Origin: Myxococcus stipitatus
GTDB lineage: Bacteria; Myxococcota; Myxococcia; Myxococcales; Myxococcaceae
DNA length: 64,000 bases
Reading direction: 5' to 3'
NCBI RefSeq assembly: GCF_037414475.1
Contig: NZ_CP147913.1
Coordinates: forward strand, 6,880,001-6,944,000
The translations under genes were made by a program, and so were the position numbers. This document shows, one piece after another, positions 36,432-41,695 of this stretch. The notes beneath the pieces were generated by a model, which was not told the origin of the DNA, did not search any database, and worked only from the letters and a program-made list of their open reading frames with translations. Position 1 is the stretch's first letter, and every line of letters begins with the position of its first letter.

Positions 36432-36591
36432 TCCTCACCCAGGCATCCCGCACCGCGCTCAAGTCATCGAAGCGCACCTCGTCGCCCCCCTGTTGCGGTT
36501 GGGTTGGAGTAACGCTGGCCGCGCCGGTCGCATTACCAAGGCGCCGGGACGAGGCACCGCGAACACTTACGCTTTTTCTCTTTCCCACGGC
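36415..36591 (-). pseudogene. orphan C-terminal gene remnant
   Basis: A 58-codon open stretch with no start that ends in a natural-looking protein tail (QQGGDEVRFDDLSAVRDAW, then VRNLGPL and stop). Composition and codon use look like a real C-terminus, and it is cut off upstream by a stop in frame. I cannot name the family. It suggests that a gene on this strand has been deleted up to its 3' end. Confidence 0.45.
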
Positions 36592-36940
36592 TCACTGGAA
36601 GCGGCTTCGAAGCACCAGTGGACTGGATCGACTCTCTGGCGAAGTGAAGCGCTGCATCCTCTTCGTGGGCACCTACGCGGATCGCGTCAGCGCCCTGGGC
36701 TTCATCACTGCTGTACCGCTGTCGCCCTTGAATGCGGCGGCCTCAGGGATGACCTCCGCTCCCTCGACATGCCCTGCTGACTTCAAGTCCTGACACCGCT
36801 GAATGATGCCACCAGGGGGCCTTCCTCCCCATCCCCTCGAGAACAACTCCATACGATTCGGGACTTGCCCCCAGCCCTTCCGCCGCAGTGCGCGGTCGCG
36901 ATAAAGGCAACAGCACCCAGGTATGGCCTCGCAAGGGGAT
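36592..36940. other. non-coding stretch with possible decayed coding sequence
   Basis: Between the orphan remnant and the LytTR gene no intact gene is supported. A short plus-strand reading around 36647-36715 (RCILFVGTYADRVSALGF) looks protein-like but has no proper start and runs into low-quality sequence. No repeats, tRNA or clear promoter are visible. Confidence 0.4.
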
Positions 36941-37669
36941 TCATGCCAACAGCTCCCGGACGCGAACGGCGTAGCGCCGGCTCATGATGAGGGGCTCGTC
37001 GATGCCCCTTACGTGCAGCCGCCACGTGTCGTTCTCCTCGCGGGAGAGGCGCTCCACGTGTTCGAGGTTCACGACGGTGGAGCGATGCACCCGGACGAAG
37101 TGGCGCGGAGGCAGGCGCGCCTCCCAGCTCTTGAGCGACTCGTGGACCAGAAGCTCGCGTCCGTTGGCCAGGACCAGCCGGGAGTAGTCGTCCTCGGCGC
37201 GGATGCAGCGCACGTCGCTGACGCGGACCAGTTCGCTGTGAGCCCCTTCCTGGACGAGCACGCGGTCGTCGAGGGTGAGCATGCGCTCGGAGGAAGAGCG
37301 CGGCTCGGCCATCACGGAGCGCAGCCGCTCCAGCGTGCGTGCCAGGCGCGCCGGTGAGACGGGCTTGAGGAGATAGTCGAGCGCATTCACCTCGAAGGCC
37401 CGCACGGCGTGAGCGGGCATCGCGGTGACGAACACCACCGCCGTCTCACCCAATTCTTCATCGAGGAGCTCGAAGCCCGAGGCGTCCGCGAGGTGGACGT
37501 CGAGGAAGACCACGTCCGGGCGGCGAGCGCGCAGGGAGCTGGCCGCACCGGGGATGTCCTCTGCTTCGCCCACGACCTCGATGTCAGGATGGGACGCGAG
37601 CAGCCGGCGCAGCTCCACGCGAGCCAGCCGCTCGTCATCCACGAGCAGCGCTGAGAGCCGTCGTTCCAT
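36941..37669 (-). CDS. LytTR-family response regulator
   Basis: A 242-residue two-component regulator: receiver domain (residues 1-120, acidic DDE near the N-terminus, phospho-Asp in VVFLDVHLA, Thr in VFVTAMPAH, Lys in YLLKPV) and a C-terminal LytTR DNA-binding domain (from ~135, with RCIRAEDDYSRL, FVRVHRSTVVNLEHVE and MSRRYAVRVRELL). It binds direct repeats in promoters once phosphorylated. Its start overlaps the kinase gene by 35 bp, so the pair is co-expressed. Targets are not evident from the sequence. Confidence 0.92.
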   Translation of the reverse strand: MERRLSALLVDDERLARVELRRLLASHPDIEVVGEAEDIPGAASSLRARRPDVVFLDVHLADASGFELLDEELGETAVVFVTAMPAHAVRAFEVNALDYLLKPVSPARLARTLERLRSVMAEPRSSSERMLTLDDRVLVQEGAHSELVRVSDVRCIRAEDDYSRLVLANGRELLVHESLKSWEARLPPRHFVRVHRSTVVNLEHVERLSREENDTWRLHVRGIDEPLIMSRRYAVRVRELLA

Positions 37670-38723
37670 CGTGCACCTTCAACCGGAGCGTTGCGTGGAC
37701 CCATCCATCCCGCTCCTCCAGGACGAAGGTGTTCCGGCCGGGGAAGAGCACCTCCAGTCGCTCCTTCACATTGCGCAGGCCGATTCGCGTGGAGGGTGGG
37801 GCTTCCTCGGTGTCCTTTGCTTGCTTCAATGTGCCGGTGTTGGCCACTTCGACGCAAAGCGCGTCCTCCTCCATCTCCGCGCGGATGGACACCTGCAGCG
37901 CCGTGCCGAGCCGCTTGCCATGCTTCAGCGCATTCTCCACCAGCGGTTGCAGGATGAGCGCGGGCACGAGGGCACGTGAGGCCTCGGCGGAGACTGACAC
38001 CGCGACCTGCAACCGTTCCTCGAAGCGCACCTTCTCCAGGGCCAGATAATTCTGGATGCCCTCCAGCTCCTGCTCCAGCGAGGCGAGCGATTGCTGCGGT
38101 CCGGTGAGGGTATGCCGGAGCAACTCGGCGAGCTGGGTCACCATCGCCTGGGCTCGCTCGGTGTCTTCGGAGATGACAGCGCGCAGGGAGTTGAGCGCGT
38201 TGAAGAGGAAGTGCGGATTGAGTTGATACTGCAACGCTTGGAGCCGGGCCTCGTTGGCCAAAGCCCGAGCCTCGATGTGTGCACGTTCCTCGGCCTGCCG
38301 CTCCTGCCAGGACTTCACCGCGTAGTAGGCGCCGCACCACAGGGCGAGGACCCAGCCCAGGTTCTGGCCCACGCGAGGCACCCACGCCCAATTCAAAGTG
38401 GTGCGGTCCGGGAAGAAGGGCGTGGAGGCCCCGCGCAAGAGCAGCCCCCACGCCGTTCCGAACACCCAGCAGGCCAGGAGCAAGAACAGCACCTGGCCCC
38501 AGAGAGGAGTCCGGCTTGTGCGCACTCGCTGGCAGATGCGGTGAAGGCCCAGGCTGAGGATGAAGCCGAGCGCCATGCGCATCGCCTTGTAGACGGCCAT
38601 GGTCTCGCGCTGCTCCGCCGACATCCCCGCCAGCACGGGGGCAAAGGTGGCGTAGGTGACCACGCCGTAGCCGAGCCAACCGGCGGTGTGCAGTTTCCAG
38701 AAGAGGCGGCGAGATTCCGTCAT
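37635..38723 (-). CDS. LytS/YehU-type sensor histidine kinase
   Basis: A 362-residue kinase with four predicted N-terminal membrane helices (residues ~10-145) and a His_kinase domain: phospho-acceptor in QYQLNPHFLFNALNSL, then an HATPase region with LILQPLVENALKHG (N box) and STRIGLRNVKERLEVLFPG (G box). The short extracytoplasmic loops suggest membrane-derived rather than large-ligand sensing. It is upstream of and overlaps its partner regulator. Its first ~55 codons are present again as a broken copy at 40148-40294. Confidence 0.92.
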   Translation of the reverse strand: MTESRRLFWKLHTAGWLGYGVVTYATFAPVLAGMSAEQRETMAVYKAMRMALGFILSLGLHRICQRVRTSRTPLWGQVLFLLLACWVFGTAWGLLLRGASTPFFPDRTTLNWAWVPRVGQNLGWVLALWCGAYYAVKSWQERQAEERAHIEARALANEARLQALQYQLNPHFLFNALNSLRAVISEDTERAQAMVTQLAELLRHTLTGPQQSLASLEQELEGIQNYLALEKVRFEERLQVAVSVSAEASRALVPALILQPLVENALKHGKRLGTALQVSIRAEMEEDALCVEVANTGTLKQAKDTEEAPPSTRIGLRNVKERLEVLFPGRNTFVLEERDGWVHATLRLKVHDGTTALSAARG

Positions 38724-38838
38724 GGGTCCGGGCGGTGTCGGCTCAATGCGAAGCAGGGCGAGTGACGCGTGTCACGACTTGCCAGTTGATGGCGGAGAGG
38801 TCGTCCCGCCAGCCGCTGGTGATGAGCATGCCATCGAT
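38560..38838 (-). repeat. long direct repeat, copy A (kinase 5' end plus DJ-1 tail)
   Basis: About 279 bp that match copy B at 40148-40408 in the same orientation with scattered substitutions and small indels. Anchors are GAGCGCCATGCGCATCGCC, GACATCCCCGCCAG, CACGCCGTAGCCGAGCCAAC and TGTCACGACTTGCC. In this copy the kinase side belongs to the intact gene, and the DJ-1 side is a fragment. Confidence 0.88.
38743..38838 (-). pseudogene. C-terminal fragment of a DJ-1/PfpI gene
   Basis: About 30 codons (GMLITSGWRDDLSAINWQVV then TRVTRPASH and stop) that match the last residues of the intact DJ-1 protein at 40310 (GVLVTSRSQDDLPAFNRQVV). No upstream part is present; beyond 38838 the sequence belongs to the sigma-factor block. 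Confidence 0.8.
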
Positions 38839-38842
38839 GTCC

Positions 38843-39727
38843 TCAGAGTCCGGCGGCCGCGAGTCGCAGGTCGCGAAGGCGAAGCGGATCCGCGATGACG
38901 TCGATTTCGGTGATGTGGTCTCCATCGAACTTGAGTCGGATGGCGAGCAGCAGCTTCCCCATGGGCGCGATGACTGCACCGGGAACTCCATCCACGAGCG
39001 CCACTCGAGCGAACCGGGCTCGGTCGGTGTGGAGTCGAGTCTCCTCGATGACTCGATGGGCTCCGTGGACTTCGGTGGCGGCGCCTGCTCGGAGCACGAG
39101 GGGATCCGCGCGACGCACGACTCCAGGTGCCAATACGGAGACGAGTGCTTCGACATCACCCGCCCGGGACGCGGCGAGGAATCGCTCGACGATGGCGTAC
39201 CGCCGCGTCAGCTCTTCGCCCGAGACCGTCGGGGCGCCCCTCACGCGATGACGGGCGCGGCTCGCCAGCTTCTTGGTCGCGACGGGAGTGCGCTCGACGA
39301 CGGTGGCGATCTCTTCAAAAGGGAGTCCGAACAGGTCGTGGAGCACGAAGGCGATGCGCTCGGCGGGGCCCAGCCGGTCGAGAACCACGAGGAGCGCGAG
39401 CCCCACGGACTCGGCCCACTCGAACTGGTCCTCGGGATGAGGGGCTCCTGATGCGACCGCTGTCCGTTCGTCCTCGACGGGGTCGGCATGCGCATGGGCC
39501 CGGCGCTGACGTGTCCGAAGCATCTCCAGGCAGACGCGTGCGAGGAGCGTCGTCAGCCAGCCCGCCATGTTGAGGATGGAGCTGCTGTCTGTACGGCTGG
39601 CTCGCAACCACGTCTCCTGGACTGCGTCATCCGCTTCATCGGCGGAGCCGAGCATCCGCGTAGCCATCGCGCGCAGCTGCTCCCGCGAGCGGTTGAACCG
39701 TTCGGCCACTTCACCCTGATTTTGCAC
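38843..39727 (-). CDS. ECF41-type sigma factor with SnoaL-like C-terminus
   Basis: A 294-residue extracytoplasmic-function sigma factor. Region 2 is seen at residues ~10-75 (ADEADDAVQETWLRA) and region 4 at ~105-165 (RLGPAERIAFVLHDLFGLPFEEIATVV). A fused C-terminal SnoaL/NTF2-like domain of ~110 residues follows, with YAIVERFLAASRAGDVEALVSVLAPG. In ECF41 sigma factors this extra domain controls activity in place of a separate anti-sigma factor. GTG start. A small gene is divergently placed 83 bp away; ECF41 factors often control such a neighbour. Confidence 0.88.
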   Translation of the reverse strand: MQNQGEVAERFNRSREQLRAMATRMLGSADEADDAVQETWLRASRTDSSSILNMAGWLTTLLARVCLEMLRTRQRRAHAHADPVEDERTAVASGAPHPEDQFEWAESVGLALLVVLDRLGPAERIAFVLHDLFGLPFEEIATVVERTPVATKKLASRARHRVRGAPTVSGEELTRRYAIVERFLAASRAGDVEALVSVLAPGVVRRADPLVLRAGAATEVHGAHRVIEETRLHTDRARFARVALVDGVPGAVIAPMGKLLLAIRLKFDGDHITEIDVIADPLRLRDLRLAAAGL

Positions 39728-39810
39728 CGGTCACCTTTGTTCGTCTCGTTCCGTCATGTCGTTGGGACGCGCGACGCGACGAGCGAACGCAAGTTGCACA
39801 GGAGACGAAT

Positions 39811-40119
39811 ATGCCCACCATGATGTTGCAGTACAAGGCAGCAGAATCGGGAGTGTCCGAAGTCCTCAGCGCGGTCGAGGCGGCCTTCGCGGCCCTGGAT
39901 GCGCGCAAGCCCAAGGGCCTGGTGCGGTTCTCCTACTATCGGAAGCCGGGGACCGCGGAGTTCGTGGGGCTGCTGGAGCTGGAAGCCGGCGTGGAGAATC
40001 CGCTCTTTGGCATCGAGGCCGCGAGGGCGCTCCAGGCAACGGTGTCCCGGGTTGCCGTGGGGGCCGCCCCCATGCCCGTGCCCCTCGAGTTGGTGGCCAT
40101 GCACGACCCCCGCCGCTGA
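39811..40119 (+). CDS. small conserved hypothetical protein (ferredoxin-like fold?)
   Basis: A 102-residue soluble protein with a good ribosome site (CAGGAGACGAAT before the ATG). The pattern of an N-terminal helix, then VRFSYYRKPGTAEFVGLLELEA and a C-terminal helix, resembles dimeric alpha-beta barrels such as antibiotic-biosynthesis monooxygenase-like proteins, but I see no decisive motif. It is divergent from the ECF41 sigma factor and, together with it, forms the block lying between the two long direct repeats. It is the likely target gene of that sigma factor (inference). Confidence 0.6.
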   Translation: MPTMMLQYKAAESGVSEVLSAVEAAFAALDARKPKGLVRFSYYRKPGTAEFVGLLELEAGVENPLFGIEAARALQATVSRVAVGAAPMPVPLELVAMHDPRR

Positions 40120-40147
40120 GGTGCGGGTGCGGCGCGGGCCCATGCCG

Positions 40148-40294
40148 ATGAAGTCGAGCGCCATGCGCATCGCCTTGTCGACGACCAGGGTCTCGCGCTG
40201 CTCCACCGACATCCCCGCCAGAGCGGGGGTGTCGGTGGCCACGCCGTAGCCGAGCCAACCCGTGTGTTCAGCTTCCGGAAGAGGCGGCGGGATT
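40148..40294 (-). pseudogene. N-terminal fragment of the LytS-type kinase gene
   Basis: Reads TESRRLFRKLNT, then after a small deletion ALAGMSVEQRETLVVDKAMR in another frame. These match the first ~55 residues of the intact kinase (TESRRLFWKLHT, VLAGMSAEQRETMAVYKAMR). Its normal start codon is lost, and homology stops abruptly at 40148. Confidence 0.82.
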
Positions 40295-40408
40295 CCGTCC
40301 GGTGTCGGCTCATGGCGAAGCGGGGAGGGCGAAGCGTGTCACGACTTGCCGGTTGAATGCGGGGAGGTCGTCCTGCGAGCGGCTGGTGACGAGCACACCA
40401 TCGACGAC
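40148..40408 (-). repeat. long direct repeat, copy B (kinase 5' fragment plus DJ-1 tail)
   Basis: The ~261-bp partner of copy A at 38560-38838, offset about 1.59 kb. Here the DJ-1 side belongs to the intact gene (from 40310) and the kinase side is a broken fragment. Both copies keep the short spacer TGAGCCGACACC between the DJ-1 stop and the kinase start, so the repeat records an old operon junction. Confidence 0.88.
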
Positions 40409-41311
40409 GACCTCTTCGTTCACCCACGTGGCCCCCGCGTTCTGCAGGTCGAGTCGCAGGGAGGGGAAGGAGGTGACTCGACGGCCCTTCACTCCACCCG
40501 CGTCGGCGAGCAGCCACAGTCCGTGGCAGATGGCGGCCACGGGCTTCTTCTCCTGGAGGAAGCTCTGCACGAAGGTCACCGCCTCGGGGACCAGGCGCAG
40601 GCTGTCCGCGCTGGGGGTTCCTCCGGGCAGGTAGAGCGCGTGGTAGGCGTCCGGGCGGGCATCGCCGAGCACGCGGTCCACGGCGAACTCACTCACGCGT
40701 CCGGCCTTGGTGTCCGCGCGCACGGTGCCGGCCTTGGGCGCGATGAGCTCCACACGAGCCCCCGCTGCTTCGAGGGCACGACGCGTCTCCGTCATCTCGG
40801 GGAGATTGAATCCATGGGTGACGAGCATCGCCACGGTCCGGCCCGTGAGCGGACCGCTCTTCGCCGTCACCGGCGTGGAGGGCGTCTGCGCGGCGGGCTC
40901 CGCCTTGGGCTCGCGGTGGAACACCTTGCTGACGATGGTCCACTTGCCTCCCTGCTTGAGCAGGGAGATGTAGTCGATGAAGTCAACCTTCGCTGTGCGC
41001 ACGGACACGGTGGCGATGGCGGCGGTTCCGAAGAGGTCGACGTGGAGGACCTTGTCCTCGCGCCCCGTCGGCGGCTTCTTCACCACGCCTTGGATGTAGT
41101 CGGCGCTGGCCCAGGCGTTGAGGACACCTTCGGCGTTCACATAGAGGAGCTTCGAGTCGGGGTGGAAGGCGCGCTGGAGTCGGACGTTGTCACCGGCCTT
41201 CACGCCCTCCGTGTAGTCGGCGACGACCGCGCGGATGGCCTCCACGTCATTGGTGGGCGTGGCCGTCAGCCAGGTGGCGAGCAGAATCGAGGTGAATGGG
41301 GCGAGCATCAA
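40310..41311 (-). CDS. exported NTF2-like/DJ-1-PfpI fusion protein
   Basis: A 333-residue protein with a short hydrophobic leader (APFTSILLATWLTATPTN), an NTF2/lumazine-binding-like domain (residues ~22-130, DVEAIRAVVADYTEGVKAGD ... VSKVFHREPK) and a DJ-1/PfpI glutamine-amidotransferase-like domain (from ~150). The latter has HGFNLPEMTETRRALEAAG, YLPGG and the nucleophile elbow AICHGLWLLADAG with its cysteine. Such domains act as chaperones, glyoxalases or isonitrile hydratase-like enzymes; the reaction here is unknown. The repeat evidence suggests this gene once stood directly upstream of the LytS/LytTR pair. Confidence 0.82.
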   Translation of the reverse strand: MMLAPFTSILLATWLTATPTNDVEAIRAVVADYTEGVKAGDNVRLQRAFHPDSKLLYVNAEGVLNAWASADYIQGVVKKPPTGREDKVLHVDLFGTAAIATVSVRTAKVDFIDYISLLKQGGKWTIVSKVFHREPKAEPAAQTPSTPVTAKSGPLTGRTVAMLVTHGFNLPEMTETRRALEAAGARVELIAPKAGTVRADTKAGRVSEFAVDRVLGDARPDAYHALYLPGGTPSADSLRLVPEAVTFVQSFLQEKKPVAAICHGLWLLADAGGVKGRRVTSFPSLRLDLQNAGATWVNEEVVVDGVLVTSRSQDDLPAFNRQVVTRFALPASP

Positions 41312-41509: not shown

Positions 41510-41695
41510 CTACACGACCGCCATGTGTTCCCACGACACGCGGCGCGTGCAGCCACGGTTCGGGGCGATGAAACACGTGTGTGTCACGGGCCCGCGCACT
41601 TCGACGAATCCCACGTGGCGATAGAGCCTGTGAGCTCGCCTCAGCGCGTTCGAGCCCGTGTCGCGGTGACGCCGTGCGCAGCTTCGTGTGCTCAA
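41510..41695 (-). pseudogene. GNAT acetyltransferase C-terminal remnant
   Basis: About 60 codons reading HRDTGSNALRRAHRLYRHVG, FVEVRGPVTHTCFIAPNRG and WEHMAVV. The AHRLYRHVGF phrase is the usual end of an N-acetyltransferase (GNAT) domain. Nothing of the acetyl-CoA-binding part is found upstream; a parallel frame suggests further decay. The rest of the 41312-41866 gap shows no intact gene. Confidence 0.55.

Follow-up and report, generated by a model that had tools for sequence, protein, structure and literature searches.

How did a sigma factor gene and its divergent partner come to lie between two copies of a single operon junction? The question is raised by a locus of Myxococcus stipitatus, examined here in a window of 64,000 nucleotides (genome bases 6880001-6944000 of a 10.31-Mb single-contig genome, G000), in which a gene for a DJ-1/PfpI protein is parted from the genes for a LytS-type histidine kinase and a LytTR response regulator by a two-gene unit, the sigma pair, flanked by direct repeats. 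A reading made from the letters of the window (the sequence-only reading) had proposed that an ECF41 sigma unit of ~1.59 kb split a DJ-1/LytS/LytTR operon, most simply by single-crossover integration of a small circle, and duplicated the target junction in the same step. Comparison with relatives points to another order of events: the locus is probably the product of a historical rearrangement, in which the operon was split first and a sigma pair of the type found in Citreicoccus entered the resulting slot later, and not an active element. The comparison drew on a family survey of 96 genomes, 27 of them of the same genus as G000. The features on which the argument turns are these, in window coordinates.

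36941 to 37669, minus strand: LytTR response regulator, final member of the putative ancestral operon (Pfam LytTR and Response_reg; 84-91% amino acid identity to the copies in genomes G088, G008 and G013).
37635 to 38723, minus strand: LytS-type histidine kinase, intact (Pfam His_kinase; orthologues in 4 of the 95 other family genomes at E<=1e-75).
38532 to 38844, minus strand: left repeat, comprising the LytS 5' end (38532-38723), a 19-bp spacer and a DJ-1 3' remnant (38743-38844), by alignment to the right copy; it shares a 3-bp deletion with the remnants in G013 and G008.
38843 to 39727, minus strand: SigJ/ECF41-like sigma factor of 294 residues, its stop codon at the left joint (Pfam Sigma70_r2 and r4_2).
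39728 to 39810, no strand: sigma/partner intergenic region of 83 bp with a candidate promoter for the partner, GGTCAC-N17-CGTC.
39811 to 40119, plus strand: divergent partner of 102 residues with a predicted antibiotic biosynthesis monooxygenase (ABM)-like fold (AlphaFold model; without a Pfam or NCBIfam family).
40123 to 40404, minus strand: right repeat, comprising a degenerate LytS 5' fragment, a spacer and the 3' end of the full DJ-1 gene, by alignment to the left copy.
40310 to 41311, minus strand: full DJ-1/PfpI protein with an N-terminal Lumazine_bd_2 domain (Pfam DJ-1_PfpI and Lumazine_bd_2).
1 to 41690, no strand: the window's part of an accessory region of ~43 kb (genome 6878953 to about 6921690), whose flanks abut in 6 of 6 other same-genus genomes examined and whose left edge was found in locus L126.

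It is clear that the repeats are real. Local alignment of 38500-38900 with 40090-40470 pairs 38532-38837 with 40123-40404 over 306 columns, 242 of them identical (79%); 24 columns fall in four gaps (3, 9, 1 and 11), the ungapped columns are 86% identical, and the score of 168 compares with a maximum of 15.6 in 50 shuffles. A repeat search resolved the pair into four main ungapped blocks at spacings of 1567-1588. Both repeats hold the 3' end of DJ-1, a spacer and the 5' end of LytS: in the left copy LytS is whole and only the last ~100 bp of DJ-1 are present, and in the right copy DJ-1 is whole and LytS is cut to about its first 190 bp, decayed and without a start codon. The duplicated junction and its reciprocal truncation were thus correctly recognised from the letters alone, as was the size of the unit, since the unique block between the repeats (38845-40122, 1,278 bp) and the 313-bp left repeat together make 1.59 kb. 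Assembly artefact was set aside as an explanation, being unlikely given copies that diverge by 14%, indels apart, in a single-contig genome. The further suggestion that the repeats could allow excision holds in principle, by homologous recombination, but such an event is unlikely at 86% identity with a longest exact common run of 24 bp.

Judged by gene order in relatives, DJ-1, LytS and LytTR formerly made up one operon, as had been supposed, and the search of relatives found it still uninterrupted in one genome of another genus, G088, where the three genes are consecutive (71%, 70% and 84% amino acid identity to the window, respectively) and 8 nucleotides separate the DJ-1 stop from the LytS start. 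At E<=1e-75, LytS relatives occur in five of the 96 family genomes, namely G000 itself, G008, G013, G011 and G088; in G011 the kinase is 58% and the LytTR protein 68% identical, and DJ-1 was not found in the 10.6 kb fetched. A single-query LytS scan of the genome contigs gave 42 pattern matches, among which no relative was confirmed, and an intact DJ-1-LytS-LytTR arrangement at the window's own site was not seen in G008, G013 or G014. The DJ-1 protein of the window (40310-41311) is itself a fusion of a Lumazine_bd_2 domain with a DJ-1/PfpI domain.

The evidence on the order of events comes from two sister species without the sigma pair. In G013 and G008 the genes run LytTR, LytS and a DJ-1 remnant; a stretch of different genes follows (4.7 kb in G013, 4.4 kb in G008; a 568-residue gene on one strand and three small genes on the other), and then a full DJ-1. 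The partner gene finds no relative at E<=0.001 in either genome. A 3-bp deletion in the DJ-1 3' end is present in all three remnants (window, G013 and G008) and in none of six full genes (window, G013, G008, G014, G005 and G088). The remnants of G013 and G008 retain more of DJ-1 than does the left copy of the window, whose homology with G013 stops at 38844. Because genomes lacking the sigma pair already carry a DJ-1 remnant beside LytS with the same deletion, the split of the operon probably preceded the arrival of the pair, and the left remnant of the window is most readily understood as inherited rather than as a product of the sigma insertion. A third relative, G014, has a full DJ-1, the same three small genes and, on their far side, a decayed 5' piece of LytS, which indicates that G014 too would once have had LytS there. 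Two observations on the genes in the slot may be recorded separately. Close relatives of the 568-residue gene (G013, L037 7371-9077) lie elsewhere in G014 (C1:3211396-3213427) and G003 (C1:11461-13277), so that this gene seems to have moved too; and G010 (L112, G010:C12) has the three-gene block of the sister genomes together with a second, inverted part-copy (one 593-bp match) ~0.75 kb off.

These remnants bear directly on the one-step origin, in which the sigma pair and a DJ-1/LytS junction, borne on a small circle, would have entered an intact operon by a single crossover, splitting it and duplicating the junction at once. The order, orientation and lengths of the block and the left repeat are those a single crossover gives, an intact operon exists in G088, and the left and right LytS pieces cluster in a tree (see below). 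As in Campbell integration, a block lies between direct repeats of one target stretch, each a junction with one whole and one truncated gene, and the uninterrupted target is found in a relative, here G088 of another genus; unlike in Campbell integration, the repeats have diverged (to 86% identity), and relatives that lack the block have one of them too, G013 and G008 carrying a DJ-1 remnant beside LytS. With the same deletion in those two genomes, the left remnant would predate the block. A donor circle bearing the junction also has no witness: no LytS or DJ-1 is recognisable next to the pair at the two Citreicoccus-genus loci (in G073 and G074), and the sites of the pair in six other family genomes showed no circle or free junction-bearing unit, in collections in which circles are not visible, collections of circles not having been searched. 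Should the shared deletion be taken to reflect common descent, circle integration is refuted in its simple form, although a circle may have been the vehicle. As an account of split and duplication in one step we regard circle integration as quite improbable, and neither this step nor the single crossover put forward in the sequence-only reading is supported by the relatives. A tidy insertion with duplicated target can evidently be a stack of older events, which a reading of a single genome cannot tell apart.

If the slot was already there, the sigma pair requires a source of its own. The partner gene is found in 5 of the 27 same-genus genomes at E<=0.001 and, at E<=1e-12, in 7 of the 96 family genomes (window, G010, G003, G004, G025, G073 and G074). 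Copies of the unit elsewhere in relatives, which the sequence-only reading had proposed to look for, do exist: in four other same-genus genomes the pair occupies other sites, with DNA identity to the window of 77% in G010 and 68-69% in the rest, and the closest pairs are those of G073 (the same DNA as locus L118, Citreicoccus inhibens; 88.5%) and of G074, of the same genus (86.6%). G073 and G074 have 5 kb of neighbouring DNA in common, which argues that the pair is settled there. As a baseline, seven matches of more than 500 bp between two other stretches of the window and the Citreicoccus genome are 69-75% identical, with shorter matches ranging from 64 to 95%. At fourfold sites of the sigma gene, identity is 0.76 between the window and G073, 0.74 between G073 and G074 and 0.70 between the window and G074 (for the partner gene, window to G073, 0.82). 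The window pair thus falls inside the variation of the Citreicoccus genus, and its horizontal acquisition from a Citreicoccus-type donor is well supported by these comparisons; the direction is one that we infer. The fourfold values between the window and G013/G008 for LytS, LytTR and DJ-1 are 0.68-0.76, and since the window-G073 value for the sigma gene is at or above these, nothing clearly places the transfer before the species split; it is probably no older than the separation of the window species from G013 and G008, although the identity ranges touch. Relocation of the pair within the window's own genome is less favoured, its closeness to Citreicoccus making transfer the better reading. 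The conserved flank of the pair's site in G010 and G003 is also present in G000 (2074388-2076157), without the pair, and a scan of the genome contigs with the partner alignment found at least 4 loci. Further afield, an actinobacterial relative of the partner (55%) occurs in Micromonospora okii (L121, 5001-5291), where the 10 kb retrieved contain nothing that matches the sigma factor of the window.

The joints show how closely the transferred stretch is trimmed. On the right, homology with Citreicoccus runs through 40122, three bases past the partner stop, and LytS-like sequence begins at 40123. On the left, DJ-1-like sequence stops at 38844, inside the sigma stop codon (38843-38845), and Citreicoccus homology picks up again at 38856. 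The stretch therefore comprises two whole genes and almost nothing more, both stop codons lying within a few bases of the joints, and a sigma factor would have moved between genera as a unit reduced to its two genes.

How old, then, is the LytS fragment on the right? Past the stop of the full DJ-1, the LytS start is matched at 10 of 12 bases in G014 and 9 of 12 in G008, with the spacing found at the junction itself; in those loci, 12-mers matching as well have a background of ~0.0002 (G014) and 0.0009 (G008) per position. This suggests a LytS scar after DJ-1, the sisters too having once had LytS sequence there, as would be expected had the junction been duplicated in a common ancestor. Several observations weigh against so early a duplication. 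The offset for the scar was chosen post hoc, G014 and G008 do not count as independent cases, and in G013, which appears to hold a small insertion, no more than 8 of 12 bases agree with the LytS start. In trees, from which the G014 kinase fragment was left out as too decayed, the window's left and right LytS pieces cluster with bootstrap 96 without G088 and 90 with it, which favours duplication, or conversion, within the window lineage; the left and right spacers are alike within each lineage. Sites polarised with G088 divide evenly, three uniting left and right, three uniting the left copy with the sisters against the right, and one undecided. The block found in the slot in G013 and G008, finally, is absent from the window genome bar one 64-bp match. 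Rival placements of the right copy were not rejected by approximately unbiased (AU) tests (0.078 and 0.079 without G088; 0.121 and 0.054 with it). The polarised sites had changed in the left copy alone at 4, in the sisters at 4 and in the right copy alone at 18; a first polarisation, made with the distant kinase of G011 (65% identity), was replaced by that with G088.

The same observations can be arranged differently, with the split and its DJ-1 remnant ancestral and the right-hand fragment later. Break repair in the window lineage would have copied the remnant/LytS region, using homology in the DJ-1 3' end, run ~190 bp into LytS, joined the end of the partner gene and deleted the older genes. 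The GCCGACACC spacer and three polarised sites common to left and right, one remnant-type base near the stop of the full DJ-1 (GTCGTGAC, not GTGGTGAC) and the clean joint at 40122/40123 are consistent with this account; the other three polarised sites point the opposite way, G014 and G008 seem to retain the LytS scar, and gene conversion between two old copies yields the same pattern. The pattern of the right copy thus fits both gene conversion between old copies and a new round of copying in the window lineage, and we hold the later fragment to be a serious contender, though the less probable account. Two junction copies could also arise, without any circle, by tandem duplication of the whole DJ-1-LytS-LytTR unit in an ancestor, one DJ-1 and the other LytS-LytTR then decaying and genes being captured in the debris. 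That would account for different fillings in different species, but no second LytTR or LytS 3' end was found between the copies in the window, G013 or G008, and such a duplication appears doubtful.

The history that we favour, and consider probable, is a temporal progression from an early split to a late arrival. In the common ancestor of these species, recombination would have duplicated the DJ-1/LytS junction and so opened a slot between the copies. Later, in the window lineage, the two-gene sigma/partner unit of a Citreicoccus-type donor would have come to occupy this slot, with joints only a few bases from either stop codon, the former content having been replaced or deleted. DJ-1 would now point at a defunct LytS fragment and the partner gene's 3' end. 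LytS starts 119 bp beyond the end of the sigma gene, both lying on one strand; transcription could run through from the one into the other, and LytS-LytTR may have exchanged a DJ-1-linked promoter for such read-through, so that a two-component system may have changed its upstream promoter. Between 36700 and 41900 no sigma-70 promoters were predicted and two terminator-like sites were found, both on the plus strand (2.5 are expected from shuffling). Under this history the series of stages in operon break-up is unusually complete: whole in G088, divided by one filling in G013 and G008, split and in part lost in G014, and in the window split with the foreign sigma pair as its filling. It is conceivable, though on present evidence unlikely, that the junction copies mark a slot refilled repeatedly by homologous recombination at the repeats, a cassette exchange without a recombinase; the fillings would be the 568-residue gene with the three-gene block (G013 and G008) and the Citreicoccus-type sigma pair (window), and each would set LytS-LytTR downstream of a different gene.

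What the sigma pair itself may do can be approached through its resemblance to ECF41, the family assigned by the sequence-only reading, which stands for the sigma factor as a likeness and not for the kind of partner. The protein has an extracytoplasmic function (ECF) core with sigma2 and sigma4 (Pfam) and a C-terminal extension of ~130 residues; it scores 207.8 bits against the SigJ subfamily model, below the cut-off of 271, and its match to SnoaL_2 is marginal (E 0.085; 13.9 bits against a cut-off of 27). By this subthreshold SigJ match and weak SnoaL_2 match it is SigJ/ECF41-like. The partner has no Pfam match even at E<=10 and no NCBIfam family; an AlphaFold model from 5 sequences (predicted local distance difference test, pLDDT, 80; predicted template modelling score, pTM, 0.69) finds its best Protein Data Bank (PDB) matches in LsrG and antibiotic biosynthesis monooxygenases (TMq 0.73-0.74), so that its predicted fold is of ABM type and it is not a classical ECF41 partner. 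Relative to ECF41 with a divergent gene for a carboxymuconolactone decarboxylase, oxidoreductase or epimerase (COE), as set out in the sections cited of Wecke et al. (2012; PMC3426412), the window's pair has in common the sigma2/sigma4 core with an extension of ~130 residues, a divergent neighbour and a promoter-like GGTCAC-N17-C[GA]TC ahead of that neighbour; it differs in its 102-residue ABM-fold neighbour, which is not of COE type, in a SnoaL_2 match that is not significant, and in the first base of the motif, G in place of the T of TGTCAC...CGTC. In the same sections 55 ECF41 loci (15%) have a divergent neighbour and about 30% are counted as orphans, so that a missing COE-type neighbour does not exclude ECF41. 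GGTCAC-N17-C[GA]TC was found by eye in the intergenic region of all six aligned myxobacterial pairs, and its form in the window, GGTCAC-N17-CGTC, is a candidate sigma-dependent promoter of the partner, although its first part (GGTCACCTTT) may be the ribosome-binding site of the sigma gene. The sigma factor would then drive the divergent promoter, perhaps upon binding of a small molecule to its extension, as has been proposed for ECF41 in the part cited of a review (PMC8999054), which also lists ECF56, ECF205, ECF294 and ECF295 as groups with such C-terminal extensions.

The locus lies within a larger variable stretch. Conserved flanks end at genome position 6878952 and start again near window position 41690, ~43 kb apart in the window genome, and the same flanks abut, separated by 52-197 bp, in G003, G004, G005, G010, G012 and G016, all six that were checked among 23 other same-genus genomes. 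A scan of the window and of seven further loci, flanking or from relatives, detected no transfer RNA (tRNA) genes, the window has no Rfam RNA matches, and no integrase, transposase or recombinase was found among 12 island proteins scanned, the smaller open reading frames of the island not all having been included; neither of the marks of a site-specific mobile element, a recombinase or a tRNA target, was thus found. In the portion cited of a survey of hotspots, 27% were without integrases and transposases, and homologous recombination was proposed (Oliveira et al., 2017; PMC5635113). On the features compared, the region is an accessory region resembling this integrase-less kind: it is likewise variable between conserved blocks, with no tRNA or integrase found and content that differs by species, whereas recombination there, as the cited portion has it, lies in flanking core genes, and here the slot is bounded by internal repeats of a split operon. 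The region holds a nonribosomal peptide synthetase (NRPS) cluster, with 17.1-34.8 kb in common with G014 at 87-92%; its two giant proteins (3296 and 3437 residues; window 3468-23668 and around) carry three condensation and three adenylation domains each, and the second gene carries a thioesterase. Beside the NRPS genes lie fatty acid desaturase-like, haem-oxygenase-like and Asp/Arg hydroxylase-like proteins. A dispersed repeat of ~300 bp (36571-36870) ends just ahead of the LytTR gene, and copies or part-copies of 76-79% similarity occur elsewhere in the genome and also in many relatives.

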